NCBI GenBank assembly: GCA_021794355.1
Contig: JAJYRA010000061.1
Coordinates: forward strand, 1 to 40,894
From: Thermoplasmata archaeon
GTDB taxonomy: Archaea; Thermoplasmatota; Thermoplasmata; Thermoplasmatales; Thermoplasmataceae
Direction: 5' to 3'
DNA: 40,894 nucleotides
The position numbers and the translations under genes are program-made. Under the pieces are notes generated by a model. It was not told the origin of the DNA. It ran no database searches and saw only the letters and a list, made by a program, of their open reading frames with translations. The number at the start of each line of letters is the position of its first letter. The first letter of the stretch is position 1. This document shows positions 3,568 through 38,839 of the stretch, piece after piece.

Positions 3568-3608
3568 CTTTAATACATATAAAACTTTAGTATTTGATAG
3601 TTGTTAAA

Positions 3609-3624: not shown

Positions 3625-3744
3625 AGACATTGTCTATTTTAATGGATCTTTTCTCCTTTCGGATTTCAATAACCTTATGAGCATCGTTTTAAACCGGAAA
3701 ATAGTGCAGTTTTTGCTCAATGTGACTGTTCTATAGTATTTTCA

Positions 3745-3775: not shown

Positions 3776-3824
3776 CTTGGGTATGGCAAAAAGTTAATAG
3801 TTTCAGGAAATTATCTGGAATAAA

Positions 3825-5159: not shown

Positions 5160-5475
5160 TACTCAAAGACTGGGAATGGGAACTCCTTCCTTAAGATTTC
5201 ATTGAGCCAATCTCCACGGACTCAATTGCATTTTTATCAGAATTTATTTTATCTTCCACCCCAAGTGACCTGGCTTTACTGATGTGAAAATATATGAAGC
5301 CATGGACTTATCCAATGATTTCCACTTCTTCATAAGAACTTGTAAAATGTTAGCATGATGACAATACTATGTACGCATATACTTTCGTTCAACTCTGAAT
5401 CCCGTAGGATTTCTTGCTCAGCATAGTAAGTTTCCCAATCAGCATTTTAAATATTTATTTGCAATCACCTAATTC
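5160..5475. other. 316-bp intergenic region without a recognised gene
   Basis: No convincing ORF, tRNA or strong repeat is seen. Its right end holds the TATA region of the following MFS gene. An ATGATGA and a CTGA near 5355-5398 recall box C/D RNAs, but the D'/C' pair is missing. Confidence 0.5.
5445..5460 (+). promoter_or_regulatory. TATA box of the Fsr-like MFS gene
   Basis: TTTTAAATATTTATTT lies 16-31 bp before the ATG at 5476. This is archaeal TATA spacing for a transcript that starts at or next to the start codon (leaderless), and it supports that ATG. Confidence 0.6.
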
Positions 5476-6708: not shown

Positions 6709-6826
6709 ATCCAATTTAGAAACCAACAATCTAACATAAAAAGGGATATATCTCCAATATCTTACAATTGATTATTCACATGAAAGAAAAAGCTGTGACC
6801 ATGAACTTTTTTAGAAATTTGATATA

Positions 6827-6838
6827 TTTTTATATAGA
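6827..6838 (+). promoter_or_regulatory. TATA box of the secreted-protein gene
   Basis: TTTTTATATAGA lies 19-30 bp before the ATG at 6857 and favours that start over the out-of-frame ATG at 6847. Confidence 0.55.
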
Positions 6839-6856
6839 TATATGTCATGATTACCT

Positions 6857-9872: not shown

Positions 9873-10678
9873 AGGGTTACACCACCTTCCATGAGAATCA
9901 TTTTCAGGAGATTATATTGCAGGAATAGAAAATTATTACTTGCTGAAGTTACTATGATTACCTTATCAAAAACCGGCAGAATCACGTATCCATTTCCAAG
10001 GATATATTGAAGCGATAATGCGAGATCCACTGCCAGTCCAATATTCTTCATTGTGATCACTGATGTTAATATGGATCCAGAGGCGTTGCCGGAGATCATT
10101 TTCACACTGCTTGAATTTACGCTGTAGGCGAAAGATATCTTATCAGACATATTCAGGTCAGATAGTAGTTTATCACTCCCTCTGTAAAATGAAGAGTTGA
10201 GGGAGCAGATCACACCACCCATGCTCCCGACCACCATAACTCCAGGCACCGGTGATGAAAAGATAATGTCATTGGAACTTATACCAATATTTCCCAATAT
10301 CAACCTGTCAAGACCTGAGATTTCACTTTTATTATTGATGGTTATGGAAATTTTAAAAATTGGGATTCCCCGATAGCAATCAACGCTCTGGAGAGAAAAG
10401 GTTGAATTGACCTTAACGATCGGAGGTACTATAATAGCCTGAGATACCTGTTTTGAATAAAATATGGCTCCAGATTGAGAATGCGTATGGAAGAGAAAAA
10501 TGTCCATGTTAGCATTGTTCATGTATGAAATGGCAACGGAATTCTTAGGGATGAAGGAAAGGTCGTTCGCTTTAATATCAACTTTATTGCCAGTCCCATA
10601 AACTAGAGTTACAGACGCACCTATGAGCATGAGAAGAATGAGAATCGGAATGAATCTGGAAAAAGACCTCACAATCAT
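9869..10678 (-). CDS. Secreted/anchored accessory protein of the ABC operon
   Basis: 269 residues, not recognised. One N-terminal hydrophobic helix (RFIPILILLMLIGASVTLVYG, about 8-28) targets the rest outside the membrane. The exterior domain is rich in beta-strand pattern and NxS/T sites (NKSEIS, NSSFYR, NASGS) and ends in a hydrophobic stretch. First gene of the three-gene ABC operon; its stop overlaps the permease start. A TATA-like AATATTTATC lies about 20-30 bp upstream of the ATG. A likely role is as exterior partner of the permease, but this is inference from the operon. Confidence 0.7.
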   Translation of the reverse strand: MIVRSFSRFIPILILLMLIGASVTLVYGTGNKVDIKANDLSFIPKNSVAISYMNNANMDIFLFHTHSQSGAIFYSKQVSQAIIVPPIVKVNSTFSLQSVDCYRGIPIFKISITINNKSEISGLDRLILGNIGISSNDIIFSSPVPGVMVVGSMGGVICSLNSSFYRGSDKLLSDLNMSDKISFAYSVNSSSVKMISGNASGSILTSVITMKNIGLAVDLALSLQYILGNGYVILPVFDKVIIVTSASNNFLFLQYNLLKMILMEGGVTL

Positions 10679-11145
10679 TCCATGTTAGTTCAATAGATAA
10701 ATATTGTGTAAAAATTAAATTGGTTAGATTTTATTGAAGTTTTGAAAAGTGAACAAAGGATATTTTCATTGAATCCTTGGAATGGATGATTTTTACCCCG
10801 TTTAATCATATTTTAAACCATTCAATGATCCGAAATCCAATTGATTTTAACTCCAGATATTGTTCCTGTATCTCCCACGGGAAATCTTCTATATCTCTCT
10901 TTACTTCAATTTCGGGATGGCATTTCTAACTGATTCTAGAAGGCATTAGTTAGTATAACTCGTATATCAATTCCCTCATGTCGGGATATTTTCAGTAGAT
11001 TGAAATGTCAGGAAGATATAAGTTACAATTCCAAGATTAACAGGTGTCCCTGCTATCCACTAACATGATTTAATAAATCCCTATGAAAGCCTAAAAAAGA
11101 ATGAAAATTTAAGAGAAAATTAAAAATTTTTTTGTATCTTAAAAA
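10679..11145. other. 467-bp intergenic region, one weak hairpin
   Basis: No convincing gene. It contains the promoter of the ABC operon at its left end and the 3' trailer of the thermopsin gene at its right end, where the minus-strand transcript would run through T-rich stretches (11095-11145). CTAACTGA at 10926-10933 can pair with TTAGTTAG at 10946-10953 (8 bp, one G-U), a possible terminator or processing hairpin. Confidence 0.5.
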
Positions 11146-14100
11146 TTAAAGTGCTGGTTTCTTTTTATTCACGAAAAAGAATACCGTTGCGCTTCCAACG
11201 GCTAGTCCTCCAATGACTCCTGCTATGATACCGACCCAGGTAAGTGCTGGAGAAACTCCGGGTTTTGCAAAGTTAACTGTCAGGGTAAAGTTCCCAACTA
11301 ACTTGGTCGATCCTGATCTCAGGGATGAAATATAACCTGTTTCGTTTTTGATTGTATAGCTCACCACTGAATTTATGGGCATGGATAGACTGATAGAACT
11401 CTTCCCATTACTGGAATAGTTATGGCCGTTTACGATCACAGTCCAGTTAGTACCTGAAGAAAGTCCAGTTTCATGGAAGGTGACCGCATAGGACACTCCA
11501 ACGAATGAAATACCCTGTATCATGTTTGAAGTTACGTCTACTGTTCCTGTGGATGAGGATGGTGAGAACAGTACTGAAGAATCTGATACGGTATATGAAT
11601 ATGTTCCCTCTGGAATGTTTGTAAATGTTATGGTGCCATTGTCTGAAGACTTTGTCTGTGAATCCATGGTCACCGTCCAGTTGGTTTTCGATGAAAGTCC
11701 TGATTCCTTGAATGTTACACTGTACTGTGGAGATTTTGTGAATGTGAGGGTTTCACTGGTTGATGTGTTAGCAACACTAACAATGCCTGTTAACTTGCCA
11801 TAGCCATAGGAAGAAGCAGTGTAACTGTAAGTTCCAAATGGGAGTATAACATTGTAATATGAAGATGTTGTCGTATAGGTTGTCCCATTTACATTGAGTG
11901 TCCAGGTGGTATTGGTCGGGAGACCACTTTCTGTGAAATTCACGGAATATAGATACTGATTGGTGCTCTGTGTTGAAACATCTCCGTATTTTATCAGAGA
12001 ACTGGAAGCAGGGGAGTTAATACTGATAAACCTGTTATGACCTATAACGTTATTACCACCATAGACTATGAGAGAGCTTCCAGCCCCTATATGATTGAGC
12101 CCCAAACTAACATCCTTCGATTCGAAAGTGTTGTACTGAACTATGTTGTTACCGTATTCAATAACTAGGCTGGATGGTGAATTGCCTCCATTTGTGTAAA
12201 ATAAGCTCTTTTCCACAGAATTCTGCCCCCCATTGAATGTTACGCTGTTCAGGTTTGGAAATGGAGTGTTCCTGGCAAACGTATTAAATGAATCTATGGC
12301 TGCAAAGGTATCCCTTGAGAATGTGTTCTTTCCAGAGAAGGTTATAATGAATGTTAAGGAAGGAACTCCACTGGGTAGGTTCAGAGAACTAGGAATAGTT
12401 TCAATTAAATTTCCAGTGAATACATTGCTAGAATCTATGGATTCGTACTCAAATCCTTCAAAGGATGAACCAGTCATGGTGAAATTTCCATACTCTGATA
12501 TTATTCTTGAACCAATGATGGCTGTTCCAGTTATGCTTACTGTCCCCTTGTCATTTGTGATACAAAGTCCTATTCCTGAACCTCCCGTTACTGATACCAC
12601 TGATTGAATAGCACTGAGTGGGCTGCGGAAGAAACTAACCCCGTACATGTTCACCATGCTCTCATCAGCAAGAATGGTAGTACAATTAAGATAAGAGCCC
12701 ATAAATGAAAGGTCAGAACCTATGGATTGTGTTGTAAGGCAACAATAGGTACCTTCCTGATTGCTTACGGTTGATTGATATAATATTTCTTGTGAGCAGC
12801 AGAAATTGTCGTTTGTTCCATTCATGGTTGAATATACGGATAAGATCTGGACACCGCAGCATTCATTGTTATCAACACTATTTACATAAGATGAAATGGA
12901 TTCTATTGAACCAGAACAAATTATGTTGCCACGCCCATTTACTACACCGGTAGTTATAATCTGGTTATCTGAGATAAAAGTGTTGCCTATCATATTTACT
13001 GTACCATCCACCTCCGTTAAATTCGTATCCGTGACTATATTATTTGCCAAGATCACGCTTCCACAATACATTGCAAATTCACCGTATTGAGTAATACCAT
13101 TCCTAGCCGTGAGTCCAGCATTTATATGATTTGAAGATAAAGTGATATCTGTGGAATTTACTGATACGAAGGGTGTAAAAGAATTTATATCAGCAAAACT
13201 CACGAAATCACTTGATGAATCCCAGAACATGATCTCTCCCACGATAAATCCTACTTCCACTGGAAGGACTGCTCCAGAGATTCTCATGCCAATCACTGAA
13301 AAGTTTTGTGATTTGTAGATAACCAAGGGCATTGTGTCGTTGAATAGAGGAATCATGTTATAGGAAAGGCGTACGGTTGGCTGGGTCTGGTAAGTTAAAT
13401 TGGTTTGTACATTCATTGTTGTCCTGTGCAGGAACAGTCCCATAAATACAGGGAATGAAAAATCACTTATCTGACCAAAAACTGGGTCCACATGCTCCAT
13501 TCCATCCAGAATGTAGGGGGATAGAACTGTGCCTTTTCCAGAGCCGGAAATGTTTGCCAATTGTGCATTGTTCATGGCGTATAGTGGTGTATATCCAGTG
13601 TAAGATTGATTGTATACAAGGGAAATTGTACCAAGGTTCACATCATTTCCAGATTTTCCGGAAATGCTTATGGTATAATTGGGTGCATAGTTGTCCAGTA
13701 ATACCTGTCCGCTGTATGTTCCTGGAGTAAGGAAGAATTTGAAGCTACCACTTATCATCAGTGGAGACCACTGGGCTGTGAGATTATTCACCATAGTTCC
13801 GGTATTCAGGAACAGGAATGCGTTTGATGGGGATATGGAACCCGTAACTTTAATATCACCTGCTTTTGCTGAACTCTGAATACCCCACATACCCTGAAGT
13901 ATGCTTGGTCCAGTATTTATTTGTGCAACATCTTTAGCAGTCCAGTAAATGGATTCACCAGATGAGGTTTCCCCAGTATCGGTACCGAAGTTGAAAGCGG
14001 ATGGCACATTCATATAACTTGAGGTGGTTGCGTTGAAATATTTCAATGTCATATTTGCATTGATGTTGTTTATATCTGTGGTACTGCCTCCCCCTGGACC

Positions 14101-15111
14101 TCCAATCATCATTTCTGCATCATAGAGCAGGTAACCGGTTGGGGTTATTTGGGAACCACTCACGAGAAAATTTGCCTGTGGTGTTGTGAATCCTGATGGT
14201 GTTCCATATGTTGAATTGAAAATAACACGATCGTAAGTGCCGTTTTTATGCAGTGTTGGAATTGAATAATTGAAGAATACGGCATTTCTGTTATTAATGA
14301 GAGTTGAATTAATATACAGGTGAACGGTGAACGGTTCATTCACAGAGAAAGTTGGGCCGAGTGCTATATGCACGCCTGGGTATGGTAATACGTTCCCGGA
14401 GGAGGAGTATATGGCGTTTGGACTCAGAATTGTTTTATTGTTTGAGAAATTCCATAGGTTATCCTCAAAACTGAGAGTGTGATGAGTGGTTGAATAAATA
14501 ATCACGTTCTGGGTCCAGAAAGTGTAAGTTGAATTTCCAAACAGGGTAACCTTATTTAACACTGTGTTAAGCTGTATTGAAATGTTTCTTGGGTTATCGT
14601 TAAGAACGTAAAGCGCTGATAGGTTGTTGATTGTGATGGAACCCTCAAAACTACTGGATGACAGATTGTAGGCCTTCAAAACACCACTTTCATTCTTGAC
14701 ACCAAAATCTCCAAGTCCCATTGGGGCTGGAGCGGATTTATATGATGGGTGTACAGTTTTATTTACCATCTTATAGTCTTGTGCGGCTTTGTAATTAGGT
14801 AAAAACAGGTTGTTTGTTAATTTCTTGTTCGTGCTATTCTGTAGATTTCCAATATTATTCTTCAGCGAAGTGGTGTTTGCACTCTTGACTGAAGATTTAG
14901 CAGTACTGTTAAAATTATTGCTATATTGCTGGAACTGACTCGTGTTCCCTGAATTTTTAACATTTCCATGATTTGACGAGGTTGACGTATTTGCAGGAAC
15001 ACCTATTCCATGATTCGGTGTGGCTGTTGTCCCAGTGCCCAATACAGCAATCGAAAAACCAATTACTGACATTAATGCTATCATCAATACCAATATCTTT
15101 TTAATTTTCAT
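11146..15111 (-). CDS. Thermopsin-family (peptidase A5) surface protease with beta-helix region
   Basis: 1321 residues. A signal peptide (about 4-24) and an Asn/Ser-rich stretch lead into a thermopsin-like domain (about 127-405), recognisable by APMGLGDFGV, the FWTQNV and FEDNLWNFS blocks and the glycine-rich IGGPGGGSTTD near 336-346. Thermopsins are acid proteases acting outside the cell. Residues about 600-1040 are short Asn/Gly-rich repeats in the style of a right-handed beta-helix (NosD/pectate-lyase-like), with an unusual row of cysteines. Three ~75-residue repeats follow (each starting Y-x-V-x-F-x-E-[ST]-G-L), then a C-terminal helix (WVGIIAGVIGGLAVGSATVFF) and KKKPAL as membrane anchor. 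Far longer than plain thermopsin (about 340). Likely function: anchored digestion of extracellular protein at low pH. A structural S-layer role is possible. Confidence 0.85.
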   Translation of the reverse strand: MKIKKILVLMIALMSVIGFSIAVLGTGTTATPNHGIGVPANTSTSSNHGNVKNSGNTSQFQQYSNNFNSTAKSSVKSANTTSLKNNIGNLQNSTNKKLTNNLFLPNYKAAQDYKMVNKTVHPSYKSAPAPMGLGDFGVKNESGVLKAYNLSSSSFEGSITINNLSALYVLNDNPRNISIQLNTVLNKVTLFGNSTYTFWTQNVIIYSTTHHTLSFEDNLWNFSNNKTILSPNAIYSSSGNVLPYPGVHIALGPTFSVNEPFTVHLYINSTLINNRNAVFFNYSIPTLHKNGTYDRVIFNSTYGTPSGFTTPQANFLVSGSQITPTGYLLYDAEMMIGGPGGGSTTDINNINANMTLKYFNATTSSYMNVPSAFNFGTDTGETSSGESIYWTAKDVAQINTGPSILQGMWGIQSSAKAGDIKVTGSISPSNAFLFLNTGTMVNNLTAQWSPLMISGSFKFFLTPGTYSGQVLLDNYAPNYTISISGKSGNDVNLGTISLVYNQSYTGYTPLYAMNNAQLANISGSGKGTVLSPYILDGMEHVDPVFGQISDFSFPVFMGLFLHRTTMNVQTNLTYQTQPTVRLSYNMIPLFNDTMPLVIYKSQNFSVIGMRISGAVLPVEVGFIVGEIMFWDSSSDFVSFADINSFTPFVSVNSTDITLSSNHINAGLTARNGITQYGEFAMYCGSVILANNIVTDTNLTEVDGTVNMIGNTFISDNQIITTGVVNGRGNIICSGSIESISSYVNSVDNNECCGVQILSVYSTMNGTNDNFCCSQEILYQSTVSNQEGTYCCLTTQSIGSDLSFMGSYLNCTTILADESMVNMYGVSFFRSPLSAIQSVVSVTGGSGIGLCITNDKGTVSITGTAIIGSRIISEYGNFTMTGSSFEGFEYESIDSSNVFTGNLIETIPSSLNLPSGVPSLTFIITFSGKNTFSRDTFAAIDSFNTFARNTPFPNLNSVTFNGGQNSVEKSLFYTNGGNSPSSLVIEYGNNIVQYNTFESKDVSLGLNHIGAGSSLIVYGGNNVIGHNRFISINSPASSSLIKYGDVSTQSTNQYLYSVNFTESGLPTNTTWTLNVNGTTYTTTSSYYNVILPFGTYSYTASSYGYGKLTGIVSVANTSTSETLTFTKSPQYSVTFKESGLSSKTNWTVTMDSQTKSSDNGTITFTNIPEGTYSYTVSDSSVLFSPSSSTGTVDVTSNMIQGISFVGVSYAVTFHETGLSSGTNWTVIVNGHNYSSNGKSSISLSMPINSVVSYTIKNETGYISSLRSGSTKLVGNFTLTVNFAKPGVSPALTWVGIIAGVIGGLAVGSATVFFFVNKKKPAL

Positions 15112-15131
15112 TGGTTGGCTTAATTTAAATC

Positions 15132-15143
15132 TCTATATAAAAC
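15132..15143 (-). promoter_or_regulatory. TATA box of the thermopsin-like gene
   Basis: On the minus strand TTTTATATAGAG lies 21-32 bp before the ATG at 15111, the usual distance for a leaderless archaeal mRNA. Confidence 0.6.
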
Positions 15144-15276
15144 TACTGGGTCTTAAATAATATGATTAATTTCTCAAATATACTCCAATGTGCATGGAAA
15201 AATTTGAAAATGGCTATTTTAAAGGAATCTAGCAATCCTTAGAAAATTTTAAAAAATGGAGATTTTCTATTTTCTC

Positions 15277-16305
15277 CTAGGATGAACTGTTTACCTTGCT
15301 CTTGGTATTGCTACTCATGAAGGTTGAAAATATAAGTCCATTGAATATTAGTAAGAAAGAGAACGCCAAACTGACTGCCACTGTGGAAGGTGCAGAAATT
15401 CCAAATCCAAATAGGTACTTAAATCCCAGGGAAGAACCAATGTTTGATATTGAACTGAGCGGTAATCCAAGGGCAGCATCAAGAATCATTGCAATTGACA
15501 TGAAAATCGAACCGTACGCCAACCCCTTTCTCGCTGTATCCTTTAACTTTCCTTTCGTAAATATATATCCCAACATGGCAATGATCATTCCAGCTAGGAA
15601 TACAAGAAGAAGTATCCAATGTAAATACCCTGAACTTCTCAATAGACTGTCTTCGACTACCAGAAATATGGCAGAACCCATGGAAATTACAAATGATGCA
15701 TAACCTGCCAATATCATCCCAGTCCTTCTCACAACCATCGGAACCAGAGCCGCAAGGATAAAAAGAATGATAACAGAAGCACCAGCTATGTCAGAACCAT
15801 AAAGACTTGTGAATGATTTTCCTGGGGTCACCTTTGAGGGGGGAGGGGTCACCTTGCTGGATGTATGATCGATAACGTTTACATGAAGGCTCGTTGATGA
15901 TGAAGATGGATCATCACCTGTGGCTGAAAAGCTAAGGGTGTAGGTTCCGTTATTTACCGATGAGGCAACTGATATTGTAGCGGTACCGCTATAAGGAGGG
16001 TCGGCATAGCCCTTAGAGAAGGAAACCGAGATTCCGCTTAAGGAATTGGAACCGATTTTTGTACCCCATGATTTACCTGATGACAGTTTTACATTATAAG
16101 AAACTGTTACAGAACCCCCAGATTTTATTGTAACGCTTGTTTTGTTAAGTGATATGGAAGAAGTACCAATAGAAAATGGACTTGCATCTTTACCAATGGG
16201 GGAATTTGTTGCGTGCACACTTGTGCCGCTTATCATTGACAAAATAAATACTGACATTACAATTAAAACAATTGCACCAAATAGCTGTTTTCTTTTAATT
16301 GTCAT
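15277..16305 (-). CDS. Membrane protein with Ig-like ectodomain and five to six helices
   Basis: 342 residues, family not recognised. A signal peptide (about 8-32, ending near SVHAT) is followed by a beta-sandwich-like domain (about 45-147) with the repeated strand patterns of bacterial/archaeal Ig-like folds (LNKTSVTIKSGGSVTVSYNV; NGTYTLSFSATG). A Pro/Ser/Thr linker (SSKVTPPPSKVTPG) leads to five hydrophobic helices from about 170 to 335. The tail is short and polar. A TATA box sits 16-30 bp upstream. It lies beside the thermopsin gene on the same strand but has its own promoter. Function unknown; a surface sensor or envelope protein is plausible. Confidence 0.7.
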   Translation of the reverse strand: MTIKRKQLFGAIVLIVMSVFILSMISGTSVHATNSPIGKDASPFSIGTSSISLNKTSVTIKSGGSVTVSYNVKLSSGKSWGTKIGSNSLSGISVSFSKGYADPPYSGTATISVASSVNNGTYTLSFSATGDDPSSSSTSLHVNVIDHTSSKVTPPPSKVTPGKSFTSLYGSDIAGASVIILFILAALVPMVVRRTGMILAGYASFVISMGSAIFLVVEDSLLRSSGYLHWILLLVFLAGMIIAMLGYIFTKGKLKDTARKGLAYGSIFMSIAMILDAALGLPLSSISNIGSSLGFKYLFGFGISAPSTVAVSLAFSFLLIFNGLIFSTFMSSNTKSKVNSSS

Positions 16306-16320
16306 TATTAAGAATCAAAA

Positions 16321-16335
16321 TTATTGTATAAATAG
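16321..16335 (-). promoter_or_regulatory. TATA box of the Ig-like membrane protein gene
   Basis: Minus-strand CTATTTATACAATAA lies 16-30 bp before the ATG at 16305. Confidence 0.5.
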
Positions 16336-16604
16336 ATTTGTAACGTAATTTTTTCATAAAAAACATTTAAATAGAACAATGGGGAAAACAATTTTTTCGG
16401 TTCTAGAAAATATTGGTGTTATCCAGTCTTTACAATGCAAGGAAGGGAAATGGATTCTTAAACAAAAAGACAATTAATAACATTTAGGAAAAAGTGAAGA
16501 GACATCATCTTAAGAACATAATAAATGGAAAAGAAAATTCTATTGTTTAGATCCTTTAAGCAGCTCCACAATAAAGAAGGTGCACAGTTTTCTTGAGTTC
16601 CATC

Positions 16605-17873
16605 TCACTCTTTCATAGTTGATTTTGAATTTGAATTAGGATTCCTCGATCTTCGATCCATATAGTTCAGGATAAAAGCTCCTACTAGATAGAGAAAACC
16701 AGATGAACTGAAGAGTGCCAGAAAACCATTATCATAAGTCTGACTGAACAGGAAGATCATGGAACCGTATAGGGTCGGGGAAAGGGCAGAGGCCATGGAT
16801 ATGGAGAGATAGAAAAACGCTATGTATCTTCCGGAATGCCCGTGGGGAGTGAGTTCACCTGCCATGGCAAAGGAAACACTGTAATAAACACCATAGGATG
16901 CACCTATGAACGAACCAAGAATGAGGAATATATAGAAATTGTGAAAGAAAGGGATCATGAATGTTGGAATGGCTGCAACTATGGCAGCTATCTCAAGTAT
17001 CCTCACCCTCCCAAGTCTATGAGAAAAATGACCAACTACTATGGATGAAATTGCGGAAATAGATAATACGGTAATTCCAGCTATTCCCACAAGAAGATCC
17101 GGATTTGATGAATGTAAGACAGTTCGAAAAAAGAAAAGTTCGAAATAAGTAAGACCAGTAATGCCAGAAAATACAAAGAATGAACCTATGGCAAGAAGTG
17201 AAAAATTTGTATTTTCAATCTCTCTGAGAGATTTTTCTCTGGTGGTTTTTGGGGGTACTGTTCTCTGGCTCCGTCTGTCGTGCATTGCTATTACGAAGGC
17301 AGAACCTATTCCCGTTATCGTAATACCTATCATAATGGAATAAATGGATGAATCATACAGACCAGAGCTGAGAAGCGTGGAAGTTATTCCAAACCCCAGG
17401 GCAGAACCCGTGAGGGTGAATAGTCCATTAATTCCAGCTGATGTACCTCTATCTGTTTCATTTCCAATCTCTGCGATTACCGGTTGAATGGATCCCATGG
17501 AAATATTTGAAAATGCCTGAATTGAAACATAACCAGCAATCAGGAAGAGGAGTGATAATTTCGTTGTAGCCTCAAATAAGAGAGATATTACAACGCCTGA
17601 AATACCAACCAACGTTACTATACATCTCATTCCCAGTTTTTTCCTTATGTGATCAACCAGAAATCCGGATCCAAGATTTCCCAGTATTCCAAATGTGTTT
17701 CCGATGGACGCCGTCAATCCAAGAATAAAGGATGCAGATGCCAGGGAAATAAACAGGGATACCTGCGTAGGAAGGATCATCGTTTCATAGGATATCCACA
17801 GATAATTCACTCCAAGGTAGATCAGATTGTAGCCCAACATAAAGGAAAGTGGTTTCCTCCCTTTTTTAATCAT
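16605..17873 (-). CDS. MFS transporter, second of a tandem paralogous pair
   Basis: 422 residues with 12 predicted membrane helices. The N-terminus GYNLIYLGVNYLWISYETMI and the block RGTSAGINGLFTLTG match corresponding stretches of the upstream neighbour (17870-19141), so the two are duplicates. Helix 2-3 loop carries GSGFLVDHIRKKLG, and helix 10 region YYSVSFAMAGELTPHGHSG also has a close match. The sugar/cation symporter-like SLC45/GPH branch is the nearest resemblance. Its start overlaps the neighbour's stop by 4 bp (ATGA), so both are translated from one mRNA. Substrate unknown; uptake of sugars, peptides or acids would suit a heterotrophic acidophile. Confidence 0.85.
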   Translation of the reverse strand: MIKKGRKPLSFMLGYNLIYLGVNYLWISYETMILPTQVSLFISLASASFILGLTASIGNTFGILGNLGSGFLVDHIRKKLGMRCIVTLVGISGVVISLLFEATTKLSLLFLIAGYVSIQAFSNISMGSIQPVIAEIGNETDRGTSAGINGLFTLTGSALGFGITSTLLSSGLYDSSIYSIMIGITITGIGSAFVIAMHDRRSQRTVPPKTTREKSLREIENTNFSLLAIGSFFVFSGITGLTYFELFFFRTVLHSSNPDLLVGIAGITVLSISAISSIVVGHFSHRLGRVRILEIAAIVAAIPTFMIPFFHNFYIFLILGSFIGASYGVYYSVSFAMAGELTPHGHSGRYIAFFYLSISMASALSPTLYGSMIFLFSQTYDNGFLALFSSSGFLYLVGAFILNYMDRRSRNPNSNSKSTMKE

Positions 17874-29683: not shown

Positions 29684-31450
29684 TTAAACAGGCTCAATAC
29701 TCTTAATCCTGCTTCTCTTGAATGTCCTAACTGCATTCCTGAGGTGGCAGTATGCGGTGATGTATTTTCTCTTCCTTTCCCTGATGTCTATGATTCTTTC
29801 AGTTTTCACCGTTGATCTATCCTGGTACGTGATCTTATAGCTCTTTCCCACAATCAGCTTTGTTCTATGACCTCTCTCTGCTCTTCGACCCATGTCATCC
29901 ATGGGGTAATTCTCGTTAAACCATGCGACTGTTTCTTCCGGAGATCCGGATTGAAGCATGTTCTTTGTGAGTGCCCTCTCAAGCAGTATGCTTCTTCCTG
30001 ATCGGATAAGGGTTCCCATGTTCCCGAATGTACCCTCGCATGCGTTTGTGGTAATCTCCTTCCCGGAAAACATCTTCTGCAGAAGGCCTGTGATCCACCT
30101 CATCTCCTGAGGTCCATTCTCAACAGCTCCCTTGTATATCAGCCTGGCAGGATCACTTATCCTGACTTTCCTCTCGCTGGCCTTCTTTGATCCCGGATTA
30201 TCCTTTATTGGTTCCCCAAGAAGGGCAAGGGAAAGATCATTGACCTGTTCCTTCAGCAATGAAAACGATCTCCATGCGTTCACGATCTTTTTCTTCACCG
30301 ATCTGTTTATTCGCCTCCTGTATCCCTCCTTAAGCGCTGAAAGAACATCTCCTATCTCTTTTACCAGGGATTCTGTATCAGATTTCCTTCTTTTCAGTTC
30401 TTTCAGGGCTGCATTGAGGTCCCGCAGTTTAGCAGCCATGACGAAGTCGACCCTTCCCTTGGCATTCCAGTCCACAGATCTGACCTGATCCAGACAGTTG
30501 TGAGCGATTTTCCTGACCTCGTCCTCCGTCATCCTTCTCATGGGATTCCTGTGTGTGACGCCCTTGAGGCCTGAATACAGTTCCATAACACCTGGAGGGA
30601 GCAATGAGGATTCGTCCCTCTTTACCGTCACGGATGAGAATGCATCCGTTCTAAGGTGAAGTGTGAACCACTCTTCCCTGTGGAAATATATGAACACATC
30701 GCCCCAGATACGATGGCTCTGCAGTATTATTATTGCCTTTTTATTCCACTTTTCAAGTATCCTGTGGGCAACGCTCATCTTCATGTCCATGAGGAAGATG
30801 ATCCTGTCGGCGTGGATCTGTGCCTCCAGTGTATTGAAGAATTCATCCAGACCATCGCCAGAATCCTCGTTTCCAAGATTCCCGAATTTCAGGTCACCGG
30901 AAACACCAAGCATCAGTCCCTTGTGCCCTTTGTACATCATGTCTATGGTTACTATGCCGTATCTGGTACCATCATATTCAATGGTATCCGGTTTGCCATT
31001 CCTGGAATAATGTATCTCAGGTAAAGACATCCTCATCTCGTTGAAGAGATCCGATCCCAGGCCGTAAAGGGATGCTGTTCCTTCAGAAGAGGTGCTGTGC
31101 ACATATGACAGGAATGCAGTCAACTCCTTCCTGTACCTGAATGTGACAAGCTCGAATGTGTTGTATAACGACATCTTCCTCCTGCATTTCATACAGAGGA
31201 ATTCCTTTGTGCCGGGTCCATTCTTCCCGTCCATGACAAGAGGGAAATAGCAGAACCTGCAGCTGAAATCACCGTACTTTTCCATGATCATGGAGGCGAT
31301 GGTGTCATAGTCAAGCATTGGATCCATACAGAGCAGATATTCTGATCGTCTCTGCATCTCATCATCCGGAATATTGAGGTTCCAGTGCTGTCCATTGGTG
31401 CGGGAATTCAGGTCTCTTACAGGAGCCTTGTAATCTATCTGATAATCCAT
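29684..31450 (-). CDS. DDE-type transposase with N-terminal zinc ribbon
   Basis: 588 residues. A zinc ribbon is made by CRFC (64-67) and CMKC (86-89). The catalytic triad is read as D170 (IVTIDMMYKG), D222 (FLMDMKMS) and E472 (TTNACEGTFGN), each in a strand/turn context proper for DDE transposases. A long basic helical insertion (about 340-405, KRRKSDTESLVKEIG) separates D222 and E472. The gene spans nearly the whole element and starts one base into the stop codon of the small upstream gene (TGATG). The triad assignment is by eye. Confidence 0.85.
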   Translation of the reverse strand: MDYQIDYKAPVRDLNSRTNGQHWNLNIPDDEMQRRSEYLLCMDPMLDYDTIASMIMEKYGDFSCRFCYFPLVMDGKNGPGTKEFLCMKCRRKMSLYNTFELVTFRYRKELTAFLSYVHSTSSEGTASLYGLGSDLFNEMRMSLPEIHYSRNGKPDTIEYDGTRYGIVTIDMMYKGHKGLMLGVSGDLKFGNLGNEDSGDGLDEFFNTLEAQIHADRIIFLMDMKMSVAHRILEKWNKKAIIILQSHRIWGDVFIYFHREEWFTLHLRTDAFSSVTVKRDESSLLPPGVMELYSGLKGVTHRNPMRRMTEDEVRKIAHNCLDQVRSVDWNAKGRVDFVMAAKLRDLNAALKELKRRKSDTESLVKEIGDVLSALKEGYRRRINRSVKKKIVNAWRSFSLLKEQVNDLSLALLGEPIKDNPGSKKASERKVRISDPARLIYKGAVENGPQEMRWITGLLQKMFSGKEITTNACEGTFGNMGTLIRSGRSILLERALTKNMLQSGSPEETVAWFNENYPMDDMGRRAERGHRTKLIVGKSYKITYQDRSTVKTERIIDIRERKRKYITAYCHLRNAVRTFKRSRIKSIEPV

Positions 31451-31788: not shown

Positions 31789-31807
31789 TTAATAGTGATA
31801 CTATTAA
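31789..31807 (+). promoter_or_regulatory. Operator-like inverted repeat 1 of the AbiE-like operon
   Basis: TTAATAGT GAT ACTATTAA: perfect 8-bp arms around a 3-bp centre, about 31 bp before the TATA box. Confidence 0.6.
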
Positions 31808-31815: not shown

Positions 31816-31831
31816 ACTGATAGCTATCAGT
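31816..31831 (+). promoter_or_regulatory. Operator-like palindrome 2 of the AbiE-like operon
   Basis: ACTGATAGCTATCAGT is a perfect 16-bp palindrome ending 6 bp before the TATA box. Known AbiEi antitoxins autoregulate by binding inverted repeats at their promoter. Confidence 0.65.
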
Positions 31832-31866: not shown

Positions 31867-32859
31867 ATGGAAGAAGAAAAACTACTCTACTTTCTATCAA
31901 AAAAGCTTGTTATAGACCCATCTGCTAGTGTCGCTTTCAATGTGCAGTTTTATCCAAGTAATGCTAACCTTTTATTTGATGCTGTAGTAAAAAATGGAAA
32001 TGAGACTATATATGTTGAAATAAAAAGGCGAATTTCACTCGAGAGTATTTTCCGATTTAATTCCTACAAGGATCTTGTGGATCAACAAGAGGTGGCTAGG
32101 GCGAAGTTTGTCTTTCTCGCTGTTTTTGTGGGAAATGATATTAGAGATATTGCTAAGAAGCTGAAAATTATAATCATCGAACTACCCGCTTCCTCATTGA
32201 GCGAAGTGACATATGAAAATCCAAGATACTCTCCTTCCAAGATAACTTCAAAAAGATCGTTTGATGTAATTTACCAAATGCTTTCATCAGGACCGTCTAC
32301 CATAATGGCCATATCGCAAGCGTCCGGTGTCTCTTATGGCTGGACGCATGGAATTGTAACCAGATTAATAGAAATCGGTATTGTCGAAAGGAAATTTGGT
32401 CTTTATAAAGTTGCAGATGTTAATAAATTGCTGGATTCAATTGCGTATGAGAGGCCAATAGGTTCTATTACCTCAAGAGAATATTGGACAGATTCGGACG
32501 ATATCCTGAAATTCGCTAGGGATGTATCTTCCATGGCCAAGATAAAGGGAGAAAGAGTTGCTTTTATGGGCCCGACAGCTTCCATTTTATACGACCCATA
32601 TTATGTCAAATCAGATACTTTATATGTATATATGGAGCCTCGTCAGATAGTTAGCCTTGCGGATGAACTTCACCTGAGAAGATCTGGAAACCTTAAAGTG
32701 TTAGTATATTTACCTGACAGGGATGTATTTTCTGATTCTAAAAAGCTCGACGGAGTCACTCTTACGTCACAAAAACAACTTTTACTTGATCTAGCGTCAT
32801 TTGGCGTTCTGTACAGGGAATTATTCAAGAGGAGGGTGGAAAGAATTGGCATTGAGTAG
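31867..32859 (+). CDS. AbiEi-like antitoxin/regulator with N-terminal PD-(D/E)xK-like domain
   Basis: 330 residues. The N-terminal ~120 residues hold a D...ExK arrangement (LLFDAVV with D38; YVEIKRR with E51 and K53) between strands, as in PD-(D/E)xK nuclease folds. A winged helix (about 131-181; ISQASGVSYGWTHGIVTRLIEIGIV) is next. The last ~130 residues match the C-terminal domain of AbiEi antitoxins (type IV toxin-antitoxin): a GPTASILYDPYY block, strands, and VTLTSQKQLLLDLASFGVLY. The nucleotidyltransferase gene 37 bp downstream completes an AbiE-like pair. It should bind the two upstream palindromes and repress its own operon. Whether the N-terminal domain still cuts DNA is unknown. Confidence 0.75.
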   Translation: MEEEKLLYFLSKKLVIDPSASVAFNVQFYPSNANLLFDAVVKNGNETIYVEIKRRISLESIFRFNSYKDLVDQQEVARAKFVFLAVFVGNDIRDIAKKLKIIIIELPASSLSEVTYENPRYSPSKITSKRSFDVIYQMLSSGPSTIMAISQASGVSYGWTHGIVTRLIEIGIVERKFGLYKVADVNKLLDSIAYERPIGSITSREYWTDSDDILKFARDVSSMAKIKGERVAFMGPTASILYDPYYVKSDTLYVYMEPRQIVSLADELHLRRSGNLKVLVYLPDRDVFSDSKKLDGVTLTSQKQLLLDLASFGVLYRELFKRRVERIGIE

Positions 32860-32896
32860 TATAAGCTAAAAAATCATAGAAGAGTCTAGGCTAGAA

Positions 32897-33592
32897 ATGG
32901 AAGATATGTTTGATTGGGGCACGGCAAAATTTGGCTTGGAAAATTGGCCGAAAATGTGGATAGTTGGAGGCTGGGCTGTGGATGTTTATAATCCGTGGTT
33001 CGGGTCTCGTGATATCGATATCATGGCAAAATCAAAAGTCGTTTCAGAACTGAAGAGATACCTTTATTCTGAGAGAAGCTACAAAAAATATAAGGGACCA
33101 GATGGGGTAATGCGATTTTACAAGGAAGTTGGAAGAGAGCAGATAGAAATAGACTTTATAAAATCCAAGCAAAGCTTTCAGGGAACTGATGATATTATGT
33201 CCGTAGAAATTTCTCCTGAGAATTCCGAGAATTTGCACCTAAAAAGGAATAAGATTATTATAGTACCAAACCGATCAATTCTACTGGGAATGAAGATCAA
33301 AGCGGTGTGGGACAGAAATTATATGCTTAAGGCAGGTAAATACTACAACCATTCATATGTGGAAGATAAGATTTCAAAGGATTATGGAGATATAATTGCA
33401 CTTTTGGACGATAAATACATACGAAATAAACCTTTGAATCTCCAATATTTGCACGATGAAATTCTCTCCAAAGATTATTTAAAGAAACTCTTGAAATCAC
33501 TCACGCCGCACGATTTTCAAGGTTTTAATTACCGGTCTTTGGATCCCGATGATTGTAAAGAATTAATCGACCGACTCTTATCCATCGCATAA
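32897..33592 (+). CDS. AbiEii/MNT-like nucleotidyltransferase (putative type IV toxin)
   Basis: 231 residues. The polymerase-beta-type nucleotidyltransferase motif is WIVGGWAVDVY (21-31) with G24-G25, then RDIDIM with D39 and D41, and a third acid in EIDFI (D86). This is the hG[GS]...DxD...D triad of the AbiEii/MNT superfamily. A helical C-terminal half follows. It is preceded by the AbiEi-like gene in the order antitoxin then toxin. AbiEii-type toxins use NTPs to modify an RNA or protein target and cause growth arrest, often on phage infection. An aminoglycoside-nucleotidyltransferase-like enzyme is an alternative; the partner gene favours the toxin view. Confidence 0.78.
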   Translation: MEDMFDWGTAKFGLENWPKMWIVGGWAVDVYNPWFGSRDIDIMAKSKVVSELKRYLYSERSYKKYKGPDGVMRFYKEVGREQIEIDFIKSKQSFQGTDDIMSVEISPENSENLHLKRNKIIIVPNRSILLGMKIKAVWDRNYMLKAGKYYNHSYVEDKISKDYGDIIALLDDKYIRNKPLNLQYLHDEILSKDYLKKLLKSLTPHDFQGFNYRSLDPDDCKELIDRLLSIA

Positions 33593-34600: not shown

Positions 34601-35206
34601 ATGCCATTTATTAACATCAGAAAACCAAAAGGTTTAGAAAGTCTTTCTCCCGACGAACTGGAGAACCTAATACAGCAGACAAAAACTGAAATATCCCTTC
34701 TCGAGAAGGATAATGAAAGAAGACAGGAAAAATTCAATACATTGATGAGGGAAGGAAGTAAGGTATCTGGATCTAAGAGAGTTCAAATTGCCAAGGAGCT
34801 TGAAACTCTAGAAAGAAAGATTCACTCCAATGAAAAAGAGATTTCCACGCGAACAAAGAGGATAGAATTAATAGAGGAAGTTAAGGAATCGAAAACCTCG
34901 GTTTCACCCAGCAGCGTGGATACCATATTATCAAATACAAATACCGCCGCGATAAGAAACGAGATATTAATAACGAAAACGAAGAAAAAGGTTGAAAATC
35001 AGAAAACAGATGATCTTCTCAATACTGTAAGGGATTTACAGATAGACGATGATGAAGGAACCTCAGTATTGGGCAGCAAATACATGGAAATGTTCAAGGA
35101 GATGGACAGAAATGATAATACCCTAAAACCCGGGAAAATAAATAAGGAAAAGAAAACCGACACAAATGAGGACGAGGACGAGCAAAATCAGGTCAAAGGG
35201 GAGTGA
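34601..35206 (+). CDS. Coiled-coil protein, first gene of ESCRT-like operon
   Basis: 201 residues, no recognised family. A helix-rich coiled coil spans about 14-95 in two arms (LENLIQQTKTEISLLEKDN and ELETLERKIHSNEKEISTRT) joined by a glycine/serine turn (REGSKVSGSKR), like the long hairpin of ESCRT-III proteins. A short predicted helix near 108-135 and a segment SVLGSKYMEMFKEMD (about 158-172) follow. The tail is charged (EDEDEQNQVKGE). Its stop overlaps the start of the Vps4-like gene by one base. Possible role: filament subunit or adaptor recruiting the ATPase. ESCRT-III membership is only structural inference. Confidence 0.7.
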   Translation: MPFINIRKPKGLESLSPDELENLIQQTKTEISLLEKDNERRQEKFNTLMREGSKVSGSKRVQIAKELETLERKIHSNEKEISTRTKRIELIEEVKESKTSVSPSSVDTILSNTNTAAIRNEILITKTKKKVENQKTDDLLNTVRDLQIDDDEGTSVLGSKYMEMFKEMDRNDNTLKPGKINKEKKTDTNEDEDEQNQVKGE

Positions 35207-36405
35207 TGGTTCTGGATTCAGATTACCTTCAGATAGGCGGGATTAAAAAGATAATTTCAGAGCACATCAAATTAGAATCGATGGCGGAGGAAAAGGGGAA
35301 ATTGAAGGAGAGTACCCTGTATTGCGAAAAAATTATCTCAAACCTGAAGATGTTAAAGAAACTTGACAGTAACAGTCCATCCTATGACAATCTGATTGCC
35401 TCATGGGAGAAGAGAAAAACCGAATTGTTGAATTCAAATGATATTACTAAATCTGTAAGGGAAAAAAATAAAACAGTCAAATCGGATGGAAAGGGCCTTA
35501 TTGGGCAGATGGAAAAGGAATTCAGGGAAAGGATACTGTCATTAATAAGCGATTCTAAGGTAAAGTGGTCTGAAATTGGAGGTTTGGAGGAACAAAAAAA
35601 CACCATTAAGGAAGCAGTTTTCTTTGCAATGGCCCAACCGGATCTGGACGTGAAGGTACCAAACCTGAAAAATATACTGCTTTTTGGTCCACCTGGAACA
35701 GGAAAAACAACCATCGCAAAGGCAATCAGTTCAAATATCGATGCAACTTTCTTTAATGTGCCTGTGTCTGAGTTGATGTCCAGGTATGTGGGAGATTCTG
35801 AAAGGATTGTTTCCTCCTTGTACGGCGTAGCAAGAGAGAAATCACCTGCTGTTGTCTTCCTTGATGAAATTGAATCCCTACTAAGGCAGAGAGGTGATGG
35901 AAATAAAAATGCAGGAGCCGTATTGCAGCAATTTCTTGCCCAATTGGACGGATTTTCAACCGATGAAAGCTTTGTCATGACCGTTGCAGCCACGAACGTA
36001 CCCTGGGAACTGGATCAGGCCATTCTATCAAGATTTGAAAAGCGTATCTATATCGGACTTCCTGACGTGGAGACAAGAAAAAAGATTTTGGAGATACATA
36101 CCTTAAAAAAGGGTTATCAGGTAGAAACGTCAATTCAATCCATTGCCGAAAAAACAACCGATTTTTCAGGAAGAGATCTCTCATTCCTGTGTTCAGAGGC
36201 AATAAGAAATATGTTGCGAAGAACCAATAGGGATCTCATGAAAGATACTGACAGGGTAATAGGCGGAGGTGAAAAGGTTACCTACCGTGTAAATCCCATA
36301 GAAGATAGGGACTTTTATGATGCATTATTGAAGATAAAGCCAGCCACGAACAATGAAATGAACAAAAAATACCAGGACTGGAGAGAAGAATTTGCAAACA
36401 ATTGA
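35206..36405 (+). CDS. Vps4/CdvC-like AAA ATPase with N-terminal MIT-like domain
   Basis: 399 residues from ATG 35206. Residues about 8-75 are three helices in the style of a MIT domain (AEEKGKLKESTLYCEKIISN). A linker leads to one AAA module: Walker A GPPGTGKTT (about 161-169), pore loop RYVGDSE (about 193-199), Walker B VVFLDEIE (about 216-223), sensor-1 AATNVPW (about 261-267). RFEKRIYIGLPD is a hallmark of Vps4/CdvC ATPases, and the end KYQDWREEF is like the Vps4 C-terminal helix. Vps4 hexamers pull ESCRT-III subunits out of filaments. The Arg-rich segment before RFEKR (RRRF in eukaryotic Vps4) is reduced to LSRF. Translationally coupled to both neighbours. Confidence 0.85.
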   Translation: MVLDSDYLQIGGIKKIISEHIKLESMAEEKGKLKESTLYCEKIISNLKMLKKLDSNSPSYDNLIASWEKRKTELLNSNDITKSVREKNKTVKSDGKGLIGQMEKEFRERILSLISDSKVKWSEIGGLEEQKNTIKEAVFFAMAQPDLDVKVPNLKNILLFGPPGTGKTTIAKAISSNIDATFFNVPVSELMSRYVGDSERIVSSLYGVAREKSPAVVFLDEIESLLRQRGDGNKNAGAVLQQFLAQLDGFSTDESFVMTVAATNVPWELDQAILSRFEKRIYIGLPDVETRKKILEIHTLKKGYQVETSIQSIAEKTTDFSGRDLSFLCSEAIRNMLRRTNRDLMKDTDRVIGGGEKVTYRVNPIEDRDFYDALLKIKPATNNEMNKKYQDWREEFANN

Positions 36406-37094
36406 TGATTGATATGGCCAAGAAAGATGATTTTGATATCCTCGTGCAGAATTTAGCATATTACCGAGGCGACAGAGGCAAAACAGAAGCATTCATGAAG
36501 AAATTCCTGGGACTATGGTCTTCATATGGAGACAGGAAGTTTTTGGGAAAAAAGGGAAAAAGAATCCTTTCTGAAAAACTGAAGGAGTTGTATGTAATGA
36601 TGGATGTATCTAGGGAAAGAATTGAAGAACTTCAAAAAATGATAGATCAAAATGAAAAAAGCTCTGCAGAAATGGATAGAATCAAGAATATCAGGGCTCA
36701 GGATTCCATAAAAGCTGAGAAGATAAAATTCAACCAACTGGAGGAACGATATAAATTCATGTCCATGCTCCACTCAATAAATGAGTTGATGTCCGGAAAG
36801 GATGCCAAATTTGTTAAATCCCTGGATAAGACCCTTAAAAATAGGAAAGTTGTCATCTCATTTCAGGATGCCATTAAGGATGAGATGAATGACCATGGAA
36901 AGATAATGGGAGAAATGGATAAACTGGAACTCTATTTTGAAACACTTTCTGACAGTTCTGGTGTTAAGATGGGAGATGCCTCAAACGAAAAGAACAATGA
37001 AAAACCTCTGTTCAATGAAGATTCAACAGCTGTAAATATGGATAGTGAGGATAACAAAGATGATGAAAAGGATACAGATATTGGGGTGGCCTAG
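36405..37094 (+). CDS. Helical protein, possible ESCRT-III-like subunit
   Basis: 229 residues from ATG 36405, whose A is the last base of the preceding stop (TGATG). The protein is almost entirely helical: a basic N-terminus (FLGKKGKRILSEKLKELYV), coiled-coil helices about 50-105, further helices about 108-180 (FQDAIKDEMNDHGKIMGEMD), and an acidic, disordered-looking tail (EDNKDDEKDTD). A basic first helix, long hairpin and acidic tail match ESCRT-III architecture, but no sequence signature is decisive. A later ATG at 36414 is an alternative start. Third gene of the operon; two bases separate it from the next. Confidence 0.7.
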   Translation: MIDMAKKDDFDILVQNLAYYRGDRGKTEAFMKKFLGLWSSYGDRKFLGKKGKRILSEKLKELYVMMDVSRERIEELQKMIDQNEKSSAEMDRIKNIRAQDSIKAEKIKFNQLEERYKFMSMLHSINELMSGKDAKFVKSLDKTLKNRKVVISFQDAIKDEMNDHGKIMGEMDKLELYFETLSDSSGVKMGDASNEKNNEKPLFNEDSTAVNMDSEDNKDDEKDTDIGVA

Positions 37095-37096
37095 AA

Positions 37097-37705
37097 ATGA
37101 GCATATTCAATAAGAAAAGTAGGGAGGAACTTGAAGTGGAAACCCAGATGAACATTAAACTCCTGAAGAAAAAGGCAGAGGATTATGCCAAGAAGTGCGA
37201 TTCAATGGCAGAAAAATATGATTCCCAGGTCCAGGCTGCCAGATCCATTAGAAATAAAAGCTTGGAGGAGACCTTTGAGGAAAAGGCAAAAAACTTGAGA
37301 TTACAGGCTTCCAAGATTCGATCCTTTGTCCTCATTATTGACGATATTGGAATGATGAAGGATCAATCATCCCTGATGAACAGTTTTGCGGACACGATGA
37401 AGATTTACGTTAAAACAATCAGCAAAGGCCAGTCTAATCCACAGTGGATGTCCCAAATGGAAGCACAGCTTGATAAGGCAGTGAATGAAAGTGAACGTGT
37501 TGGGGATTTATTTGGAGGTCTGTTGCAGGATGTGGGAACGAATCTCAATATGGAGTTTGATTCCATTTCAAAAGGAGAAAATGCAGGCAAGAATCCAGCA
37601 TCAGAAGAAGAACCAAAACTCGCTGCCGATAAGATAGATGATGTGGAAAAAAGGCTGAGAGAAAAATTGAAAAATATGGATGAAAGGGAAAAAGAGGAAT
37701 CATGA
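37097..37705 (+). CDS. ESCRT-III-like (CdvB-like) protein with MIM1-like tail
   Basis: 202 residues. Helices about 10-50 and 52-85 form a long basic hairpin around RSIRNKSLEET. Next come a helix with MKDQSSLMNSFADTMKIYVK (about 87-106), a short linker, and MSQMEAQLDKAVNESERVGD (about 118-137). This order and spacing resemble the Snf7 core, where the corresponding helices read ...VLKNMGYAAKAMK... and ...VDELMQDIADQ.... A flexible acidic linker leads to a terminal helix DVEKRLREKLKNM (about 182-194), close to the MIM1 motif (L-x-x-R-L-x-x-L-K) that binds MIT domains. Fourth gene, followed directly by the second AAA gene (stop then ATG, no gap). Likely polymerises on membranes. Confidence 0.72.
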   Translation: MSIFNKKSREELEVETQMNIKLLKKKAEDYAKKCDSMAEKYDSQVQAARSIRNKSLEETFEEKAKNLRLQASKIRSFVLIIDDIGMMKDQSSLMNSFADTMKIYVKTISKGQSNPQWMSQMEAQLDKAVNESERVGDLFGGLLQDVGTNLNMEFDSISKGENAGKNPASEEEPKLAADKIDDVEKRLREKLKNMDEREKEES

Positions 37706-38839
37706 ATGCCTGAAGAGCAGGGCCTGGAGAAATATAAAAATCGGTTAAGGATCATTTTAAGTGAAGGACAGGAAAATGGAACGAAAATTAAAAGACTAAA
37801 GTCTCTTGCACACGATCTCGTTGATAATTCAAAAAATATGGATCGAGAGAACAGAAAATACATGCTTTTTTTAGCAGAGGAATGCGTTGAGGAAATAGAA
37901 AAATTACAGAAAAAAGAGGAAAACTCCATCGTAAAAAAGGATGTAAAGGCAAATCAGCATACTGGAGATCTGTTACAAAATAATGATGCAAAGGAGTTTG
38001 TTAAGAAACTGAATCCCGCGATTTTTCAAACGGATTTTGATCACATAGCTGGTCTCGATGACGTGAAGAGAATAATAATTAATCAGGTGATCAAAGCAGG
38101 AGAGAATCCAGATATTGCAAAGATGTACGGTATTATGGGCAGGAACATTTTGCTCTTTGGTCCACCGGGAACAGGAAAAACCAGCATTGCCCAGGCAATT
38201 TCAAATAAGACCCAATTTCCCATGGTTACCATTACCCCATCATACATTCTTGATAATAAATTTGGAGAGTTTGAAAAAAACATAAAATCCCTGTTTACCG
38301 GGGCGGAGTTAATTAAGCCCATAATCATTTTTTTTGACGAGTTTGAATCTCTTGCCCCAAGGAGAACAAGCATTAATTCTTCGTATATGAAGAGGGCAGT
38401 TCCTGAAATGTTGAGACAGATGACTGATATGAGGAAAAAATCTGATGGTGGAATAATCCTCATTGGTGCCACAAACAATCCATGGGACATTGATGATGCT
38501 ATGTTGAATCCTGAACGATTCGATACCAAGATTTACGTTCCGCCACCCGATGATTTAGCCCGCGCTTCCCTATTCAGGATATTCCTTTCAGAATTGAAAG
38601 CCTCAGGTGAAATTAATTATGAAGAGCTCGGCAGGCTCTCAGAGGGTTTTACGGGAGCCGATATAAAATACATATGCAGAAACGCAGCGGAGAATGTGTT
38701 TTCAGACGTGATAGAAAAACATGAGGTCAGGGATATAACGCAAATTGACGTGGTTAATGCAATGGAAAGAGCCCCCAAATCCATAACCATGGATCTTCTG
38801 GGTAAATACGATAAATTTAGGGATAAATTCCACATTTAA
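37706..38839 (+). CDS. Second, divergent Vps4-like AAA ATPase
   Basis: 377 residues. The helical N-terminus (about 5-70; LAEECVEEIEKLQKK) could be a second MIT-like adaptor. The AAA module begins FDHIAGLDDVK (111) with Walker A GPPGTGKTS (152-160), pore loop KFGEFEK (185-191), Walker B IIIFFDEFES (D211, E212), sensor-1 GATNNPWDID, and a C-terminal helix PKSITMDLLGKYDKF like the end of Vps4. The arginine-finger region reads MLNPERFD: the first Arg of the usual R-P-G-R-F-D is Asn268. Last gene of the operon, starting immediately after the previous stop codon. It may form mixed hexamers with the first AAA protein or act on a different subunit. Confidence 0.82.
   Translation: MPEEQGLEKYKNRLRIILSEGQENGTKIKRLKSLAHDLVDNSKNMDRENRKYMLFLAEECVEEIEKLQKKEENSIVKKDVKANQHTGDLLQNNDAKEFVKKLNPAIFQTDFDHIAGLDDVKRIIINQVIKAGENPDIAKMYGIMGRNILLFGPPGTGKTSIAQAISNKTQFPMVTITPSYILDNKFGEFEKNIKSLFTGAELIKPIIIFFDEFESLAPRRTSINSSYMKRAVPEMLRQMTDMRKKSDGGIILIGATNNPWDIDDAMLNPERFDTKIYVPPPDDLARASLFRIFLSELKASGEINYEELGRLSEGFTGADIKYICRNAAENVFSDVIEKHEVRDITQIDVVNAMERAPKSITMDLLGKYDKFRDKFHI

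Follow-up and report, generated by a model that had tools for sequence, protein, structure and literature searches.

The window, by which we mean the whole 40,894-nt stretch of archaeal DNA analyzed here, encodes a gene pair that we read, with a probability of roughly 0.7, as an AbiE/MenAT-like toxin-antitoxin operon of two genes that represses itself, a reading that draws on sequence relationships and predicted structures. The pair is most likely a divergent member of a known AbiE-type kind of toxin-antitoxin system, and its antitoxin begins with a domain for which structure prediction gives a restriction-endonuclease-like (PD-(D/E)xK) fold. The toxin-antitoxin nature of the pair is well supported, since the second protein carries DUF1814 motifs I-IV and matches the fold of MenT1, the putative operator is conserved among relatives, and decay of the locus strikes only the toxin. 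The antitoxin gene lies directly upstream of the DUF1814-type nucleotidyltransferase gene, on the same strand and 37 nt away, which is the layout by which AbiE systems are recognized. The locus is composed of the following features:

31789..31807, no strand: operator-like inverted repeat TTAATAGTGATACTATTAA, in alignment with the first TATCACTGATA site (near -87) of relatives
31816..31831, no strand: operator-like perfect palindrome ACTGATAGCTATCAGT, overlapping the position of the -45 site of relatives
31867..32859, plus strand: AbiEi_2-like antitoxin gene, 330 aa, ATG to stop, with full-length profile homology to PF09952-positive antitoxins
31867..32211, plus strand: N-terminal PD-(D/E)xK-like domain, about residues 1-115 (D38, E51, K53), the span being an estimate from AlphaFold secondary structure
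32239..32421, plus strand: winged-helix domain, about residues 125-185, from the predicted structure and weak TrmB/HVO_A0114/MarR matches
32422..32859, plus strand: C-terminal AbiEi_2-like domain, about residues 186-330, from profile comparison
32897..33592, plus strand: nucleotidyltransferase toxin gene, 231 aa, ATG to stop, from its motifs and the Foldseek match to MenT1

An in-frame GTG is located 72 nt upstream of the antitoxin ATG, within the operator region. The paralogue of the antitoxin in the same genome (contig C39) opens exactly at the corresponding ATG and also has 330 aa, so the ATG at 31867 is the likely start. The host genome is one in a set of archaeal genomes of 1-2.3 Mb, and its genes suggest a Thermoplasmatales-type archaeon.

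Placement of the antitoxin in the AbiEi_2 branch

Neither window protein has a match above the cut-off in Pfam, NCBIfam or PADLOC, and PF09952 does not match the window antitoxin itself with the gathering score as the detection threshold; the family assignment was therefore made through relatives. Four archaeal relatives that the window protein retrieves, one of them in the same genome, reach PF09952 (AbiEi_2) with E-values down to 5.5e-12 and possess the same N-terminal domain with its D and [ED]-x-K; the PF09952 cut-off is reached only in the homologous A3/A4 proteins. Comparison of the profile of the window clade with that of the AbiEi_2 family extends over 321 columns (probability 99.2, E=1.7e-19) and places the E-x-K of the one on the E-x-K of the other, and a second comparison of the two returns E=3.4e-13. 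The resemblance of the end of the protein to AbiEi antitoxins, recognized in an earlier sequence-only reading, is thus part of a whole-length homology to AbiEi_2. Falling below the PF09952 cut-off yet homologous over its whole length, the window antitoxin is best described as a divergent AbiEi_2 relative rather than a Pfam-defined member.

The N-terminal domain is widespread among these relatives. One of the PF09952-positive archaeal proteins, used as a query against plasmid records, gave 82 matches; in 68 of them a single place spans at least 80% of the query, and hence most of the N-terminal domain. Most of the matches listed bear the annotation 'type IV toxin-antitoxin system AbiEi family antitoxin', and an AbiEii gene usually adjoins them. 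A scan of 84,980 species with profile A4 yielded 192 loci. Among the best 80 bacterial loci of these 192, the N-terminal domain aligns in 79 and a toxin-family ORF is found nearby in 77. The genome-contig scan with the window protein alone as the query returned no relative, the relatives being found with profile A4; there was no match to P0001 in phage records and none to the archaeal relative L012 in plasmid records. Weak matches to Dsc3_N, methylmalonyl-CoA mutase and similar families were taken as chance. Judged from these alignments, the nuclease-fold domain is a standard part of the AbiEi_2 branch, present in nearly every member examined, bacterial and archaeal. The earlier proposal that the extra domain sets this antitoxin apart is overturned by its presence in 79 of those 80 bacterial loci.

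That proposal had taken classical AbiEi, with a winged helix and a C-terminal domain only, as its reference, a description that is accurate for the COG5340 branch but refers to the wrong branch for this protein, the homology of which is to AbiEi_2. The AbiEi antitoxins fall into two unrelated groups, COG5340 with two domains and COG4861, the latter paired with COG4849 toxins (Dy et al. 2014, PMC3985639). AbiEi_2 probably corresponds to COG4861, to which type, together with COG4849, the pair Rv0836c-Rv0837c of Mycobacterium tuberculosis belongs (PMC3968373). The AbiEi_2 antitoxins examined have the same three-domain layout as the window protein—a restriction-endonuclease-like N-terminus, a winged helix and an AbiEi_2 C-terminus—and systems that combine them with COG4849/DUF1814 toxins, Rv0836c-Rv0837c included, share the two-gene order and toxin motifs of the window pair. 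The archaeal clade has diverged from AbiEi_2, to which it is 20% identical in the profile alignment, and it stays below the Pfam cut-off; its loop between strands 2 and 3 is shorter, and it lacks a four-residue insertion with G-Q-P after E-x-K, while the Arg is kept (R55). Streptococcal AbiE, a COG5340 AbiEi with AbiEii, resembles the window pair in being bicistronic with the antitoxin first, in its winged-helix regulator, in the inverted repeats over the promoter and in its pol-beta nucleotidyltransferase with motifs I-IV, but the COG5340 antitoxins have only two domains and, according to Dy et al., no sequence identity with COG4861 (PMC3985639). A Thermoplasmatales genome is on record as containing AbiEi-AbiEii pairs (PMC10354927), and Thermoplasmatota are listed as retaining AbiE (PMC12988326). 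We found no description of the N-terminal AbiEi_2 domain as nuclease-like in the searchable papers, a coverage that leaves out most subscription papers.

Fold of the N-terminal domain and loss of its triad

The sequence-only reading had pointed to extra N-terminal residues with D38, E51 and K53 in the order of a PD-(D/E)xK active site. The positions are correct, the spacing is D-x12-E-x-K, and the predicted structure agrees: in an AlphaFold2 model based on 21 homologues (mean pLDDT 82.6), residues 3-105 adopt the a-b-b-b-a-b-a-b order of the PD-(D/E)xK core, followed by the winged helix, which had also been anticipated, and the C-terminal domain. D38 lies on the second predicted strand (35-43), and E51 and K53 lie on the third (46-55), the placement that characterizes this core. 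The list of Foldseek matches in the PDB is headed by the PD-(D/E)xK nucleases Bax1, AF1548 and EndoMS/NucS, with Cdn1 and Can2 just behind, and the probability is about 1 for NucS/EndoMS, Bax1 and Can2. Full-length TM-scores to these nucleases are low, as expected when one domain of three aligns. NucS/EndoMS, Bax1 and Can2 share the fold and the order of active-site residues with the antitoxin domain; they differ in being dedicated nucleases at 11-20% identity, whereas the antitoxin family does not keep the triad strictly. A PDB sequence search gave no useful match.

In the close relatives with coverage of these residues (n=24, mostly at 24-31% identity to the query), D38 is retained in all 24, E51 in 23 and K53 in 20. 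A chance occurrence of the D/E/K order is ruled out by this conservation together with the predicted fold. The expectation that the triad would be conserved in homologues holds in the close relatives and less consistently across the branch: D-[DE]-K is intact in 60 of the best 80 bacterial loci (of 192) and missing in 20, one of these being an alignment gap. The D-column counts for AbiEi_2 and bacteria in a wide MAFFT alignment were not used, since that alignment sets D38 four columns off owing to the longer strand 2-3 loop of AbiEi_2.

Loss of the triad leaves the partner gene largely untouched. Where the triad is not intact, 18 of 20 bacterial members have a toxin ORF of at least 200 aa, compared with 56 of 60 where it is. 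Among distant archaeal relatives, L060, L062, L064 and L065 are without E and/or K yet keep toxins of 240-250 aa. Because the triad-lost members, bacterial and distant archaeal, nearly all keep the toxin, catalysis by the N-terminal domain is, on the comparative evidence, not needed for the system in general, and the earlier suggestion of cutting finds no support as a general rule. The domain is ancestral to the AbiEi_2 branch, and since its fold persists while the triad has been lost repeatedly, we regard it mainly as a nuclease-derived module for binding or sensing nucleic acid or for structure. For the window copy either sensing or cutting by the domain would be possible, and with its triad intact it may possess residual nuclease activity.

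A tentative reading along these lines is that the domain senses nucleic acid, such as broken or viral DNA, without cutting it, and that binding releases the toxin or the promoter. Retention of the fold, but not of catalysis, across the whole branch would suit such a sensor, as would the position of the domain next to the DNA-binding winged helix, and catalytically dead restriction-like folds that bind nucleic acid exist; the domain could, however, equally serve dimerization or operator contact. We regard it as rather doubtful that in the window copy the domain acts as a working nuclease on foreign or damaged nucleic acid, which would make the antitoxin itself an effector in a two-weapon defence. 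All three residues are present in the window copy and frequent in its close relatives, the closest folds are true nucleases, and in the window clade the toxin is broken in 3/3 triad-lost loci versus 5/18 others (Fisher 0.04), in a test on small numbers that counts K53R as kept and uses classes set after the data were seen. The loss of the E/K pair in the four distant archaeal relatives with intact toxins and the absence of the triad beside a toxin of at least 200 aa in 18 bacterial members argue against this nuclease, as does the G-Q-P-R motif that follows E-x-K: in the best 80 bacterial loci its G is found in 77, and its P and R (79/80 each) outlast E (65/80) and K (71/80).

To our knowledge, what makes AbiE systems respond to phage is not settled, and a nuclease-fold domain common to this entire branch of the AbiEi antitoxins is an obvious candidate sensor. 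The patchy triad across AbiEi_2 provides natural active-site mutants for testing the domain.

Toxin, candidate operator and decay of the pair

The toxin contains G24-G25, D39-I-D41 13 residues further on, K133-x-K135-A136-x-W138-D139-R140 and K161-D162-x-x-D165. These columns are almost all invariant in 14 homologues and fit DUF1814 motifs I-IV as defined by Dy et al. (hG[G/S]x9-13DhD; K..A..R; +DxxD), each of the four being required for AbiEii toxicity (Dy et al. 2014, PMC3985639). The toxin model is of moderate quality (pLDDT 70, below 50 at the N-terminus), and MenT1 structures (8an5/8an4) occupy its first three Foldseek ranks (E=2e-4 with probability 1.00, then 5e-4 and 8e-3). MenT1 (Rv0078A) of MenAT1 is thus the best structural match, but its antitoxin is of another type, and TM-scores of only 0.3-0.4 indicate the fold class, not close kinship. 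The partner had been called a 'clear' AbiEii/MNT nucleotidyltransferase: motifs and fold bear out the assignment, the clarity less so, as the toxin does not reach the PF08843 cut-off (gathering score as the detection threshold). Among the toxins of relatives a weak PF08843 match is found only in L062 (E=0.083). That the pair is no toxin-antitoxin system, but a regulator beside a small-molecule nucleotidyltransferase, for example of the aminoglycoside-modifying type, is very improbable: the toxin's one Pfam signal, to Aminoglyc_resit (E=0.0057), stays below threshold, and LinB and ANT(4'') appear low in its Foldseek list, whereas MenT1 heads that list, DUF1814 motifs III and IV are present, the AbiEi_2 homologues adjoin AbiEii genes and decay hits the toxin only.

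At its N-terminus the window toxin falls about 17 residues short of its relatives. Upstream of its ATG (32867-32897, plus strand) the frame remains open and relative-like for about 9 codons with no ordinary start codon; to judge from this, the original start of the toxin may be gone, along with about 17 N-terminal residues.

Nearly all relatives carry TATCACTGATA near -87 and TATCAGTGATA near -45 upstream of the antitoxin gene, often with extra copies near -65 and -23, which amounts to a phasing of roughly 21 bp. Shuffling leads to an expectation of 0.04-0.14 matches per promoter, and almost none occur further upstream. The palindrome ACTGATAGCTATCAGT is identical in the C39 paralogue and occurs once in the window. 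Autorepression by a winged-helix dimer is known for AbiEi, and by analogy the conserved repeats fit a candidate operator for such repression.

In the toxin-antitoxin reading that we prefer, the antitoxin would use its winged helix to bind the phased operator at its own promoter and so hold the operon low, and its C-terminal AbiEi_2-like domain would neutralize the toxin. A fall in antitoxin activity, for instance on virus takeover or loss of the element, would free the pol-beta-type toxin, which would then add nucleotides to an essential RNA, most likely the tRNA acceptor end as in MenT, and growth would stop. MenT nucleotidylates tRNA acceptor ends. By analogy with known systems, a role of the pair in phage defence is plausible.

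We surveyed 117 genomes of the order with the toxin profile and with the antitoxin for signs of decay. Eight loci have an intact antitoxin with a broken or missing toxin (G104, G061, G060, G050, G074, G088:C3, G083 and G093:C119) and none has a full-length toxin without an adjacent antitoxin (sign test 0.008), counts that rest partly on draft genomes. Assembly error is unlikely for G104 and G060, each of which is a single contig; the antitoxin of G039, an open frame with no ordinary start codon, was left out of the count. Between the window pair and its C39 paralogue dN/dS is 0.16 for the antitoxin, with 0.19 in its N-terminal domain, 0.19 in its winged helix and 0.12 in its C-terminal domain, and 0.21 for the toxin, indicating that all parts of the pair are under purifying selection. 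The conserved operator and the toxin decay make the archaeal clade a good comparative set.

The C39 copy of the pair (G000:C39:1946-3668, L002) displays 80% and 75% identity to the window proteins. Two more AbiEi_2 loci are present in the same genome (G000:C79, L003/L031; G000:C71, L038), for a total of four AbiE-like loci.

Cassette arrays at tRNA-Ala and neighboring genes

A 38-nt direct repeat, TATTC[C/G]CTTAAAAC[A/T]TTAA[T/G]CAAATCCCGACCGGTCCA, stands on either side of the pair in several relatives, and its last 19 nt are the 3' end of tRNA-Ala. The repeat is present in 50 of the 117 genomes, with zero matches in a reversed control, and in the four single-contig genomes checked (G048, G073, G104 and G101) it lies on the same strand as an intact tRNA-Ala gene and 3' of it, within about 52 kb. 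The arrays of relatives and the repeat copies of the host genome are located as follows:

L221 (G073), 5768-8788: repeat array
L222 (G074), 4121-12116: repeat array
L241 (G104), 67-17803: repeat array
L219/L220/L223 (G048): repeat arrays
G000:C13:71961, C35 and C85: 38-nt repeat in the genome of the window

The intervals between repeats measure about 0.4-4 kb, with a few longer, and carry toxin-antitoxin and other small genes; G074 has eight repeat copies at a spacing of 388-1963 nt. Between the repeats lie PIN-domain and Fic genes in G074, a ParE-type toxin in G073, and further small genes. One interval of about 1964 nt is formed by the AbiE pair in G073, G074, G078, G042 and G104, and in two genomes the pair directly follows an intact tRNA-Ala. 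No tyrosine recombinase (PF00589) is found inside the arrays in the genomes checked. The window copy is without the surrounding repeat even at 13/38 mismatches, and the C39 paralogue is likewise unflanked. From their sequence organization, the arrays look as if small cassettes had been integrated one after another at tRNA-Ala, and they recall integron arrays without an integrase. A narrow literature search found no description of tRNA-Ala cassette arrays in the papers searched. The arrays suggest integron-like stockpiling of toxin-antitoxin and defence genes in archaea, which, if confirmed, would be weightier than the pair itself.

A wider conjecture, which we consider unlikely, is that the N-terminal domain acts as the trigger: it would recognize, and in copies with an intact triad process, foreign or broken nucleic acid, whereupon neutralization would cease and the tRNA-modifying toxin be released, the pairs spreading as recombinase-less cassettes in arrays anchored at tRNA-Ala.

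Two further observations concern the surroundings of the pair. On the minus strand, 29684-31450 encodes a protein of 588 aa that starts with a zinc-ribbon-like region and ends in a WYL domain (PF13280, E=4.8e-7), while its middle part may be DDE-transposase-like. Since full copies of this protein occur in two other genomes and many decayed fragments in its own and related genomes, it is probably a mobile element adjoining the pair. On the plus strand, the translations of 34601-38839 comprise two Vps4-like AAA ATPases and three small coiled-coil proteins, a cluster that may be an archaeal membrane-remodelling operon of the ESCRT/Cdv type.
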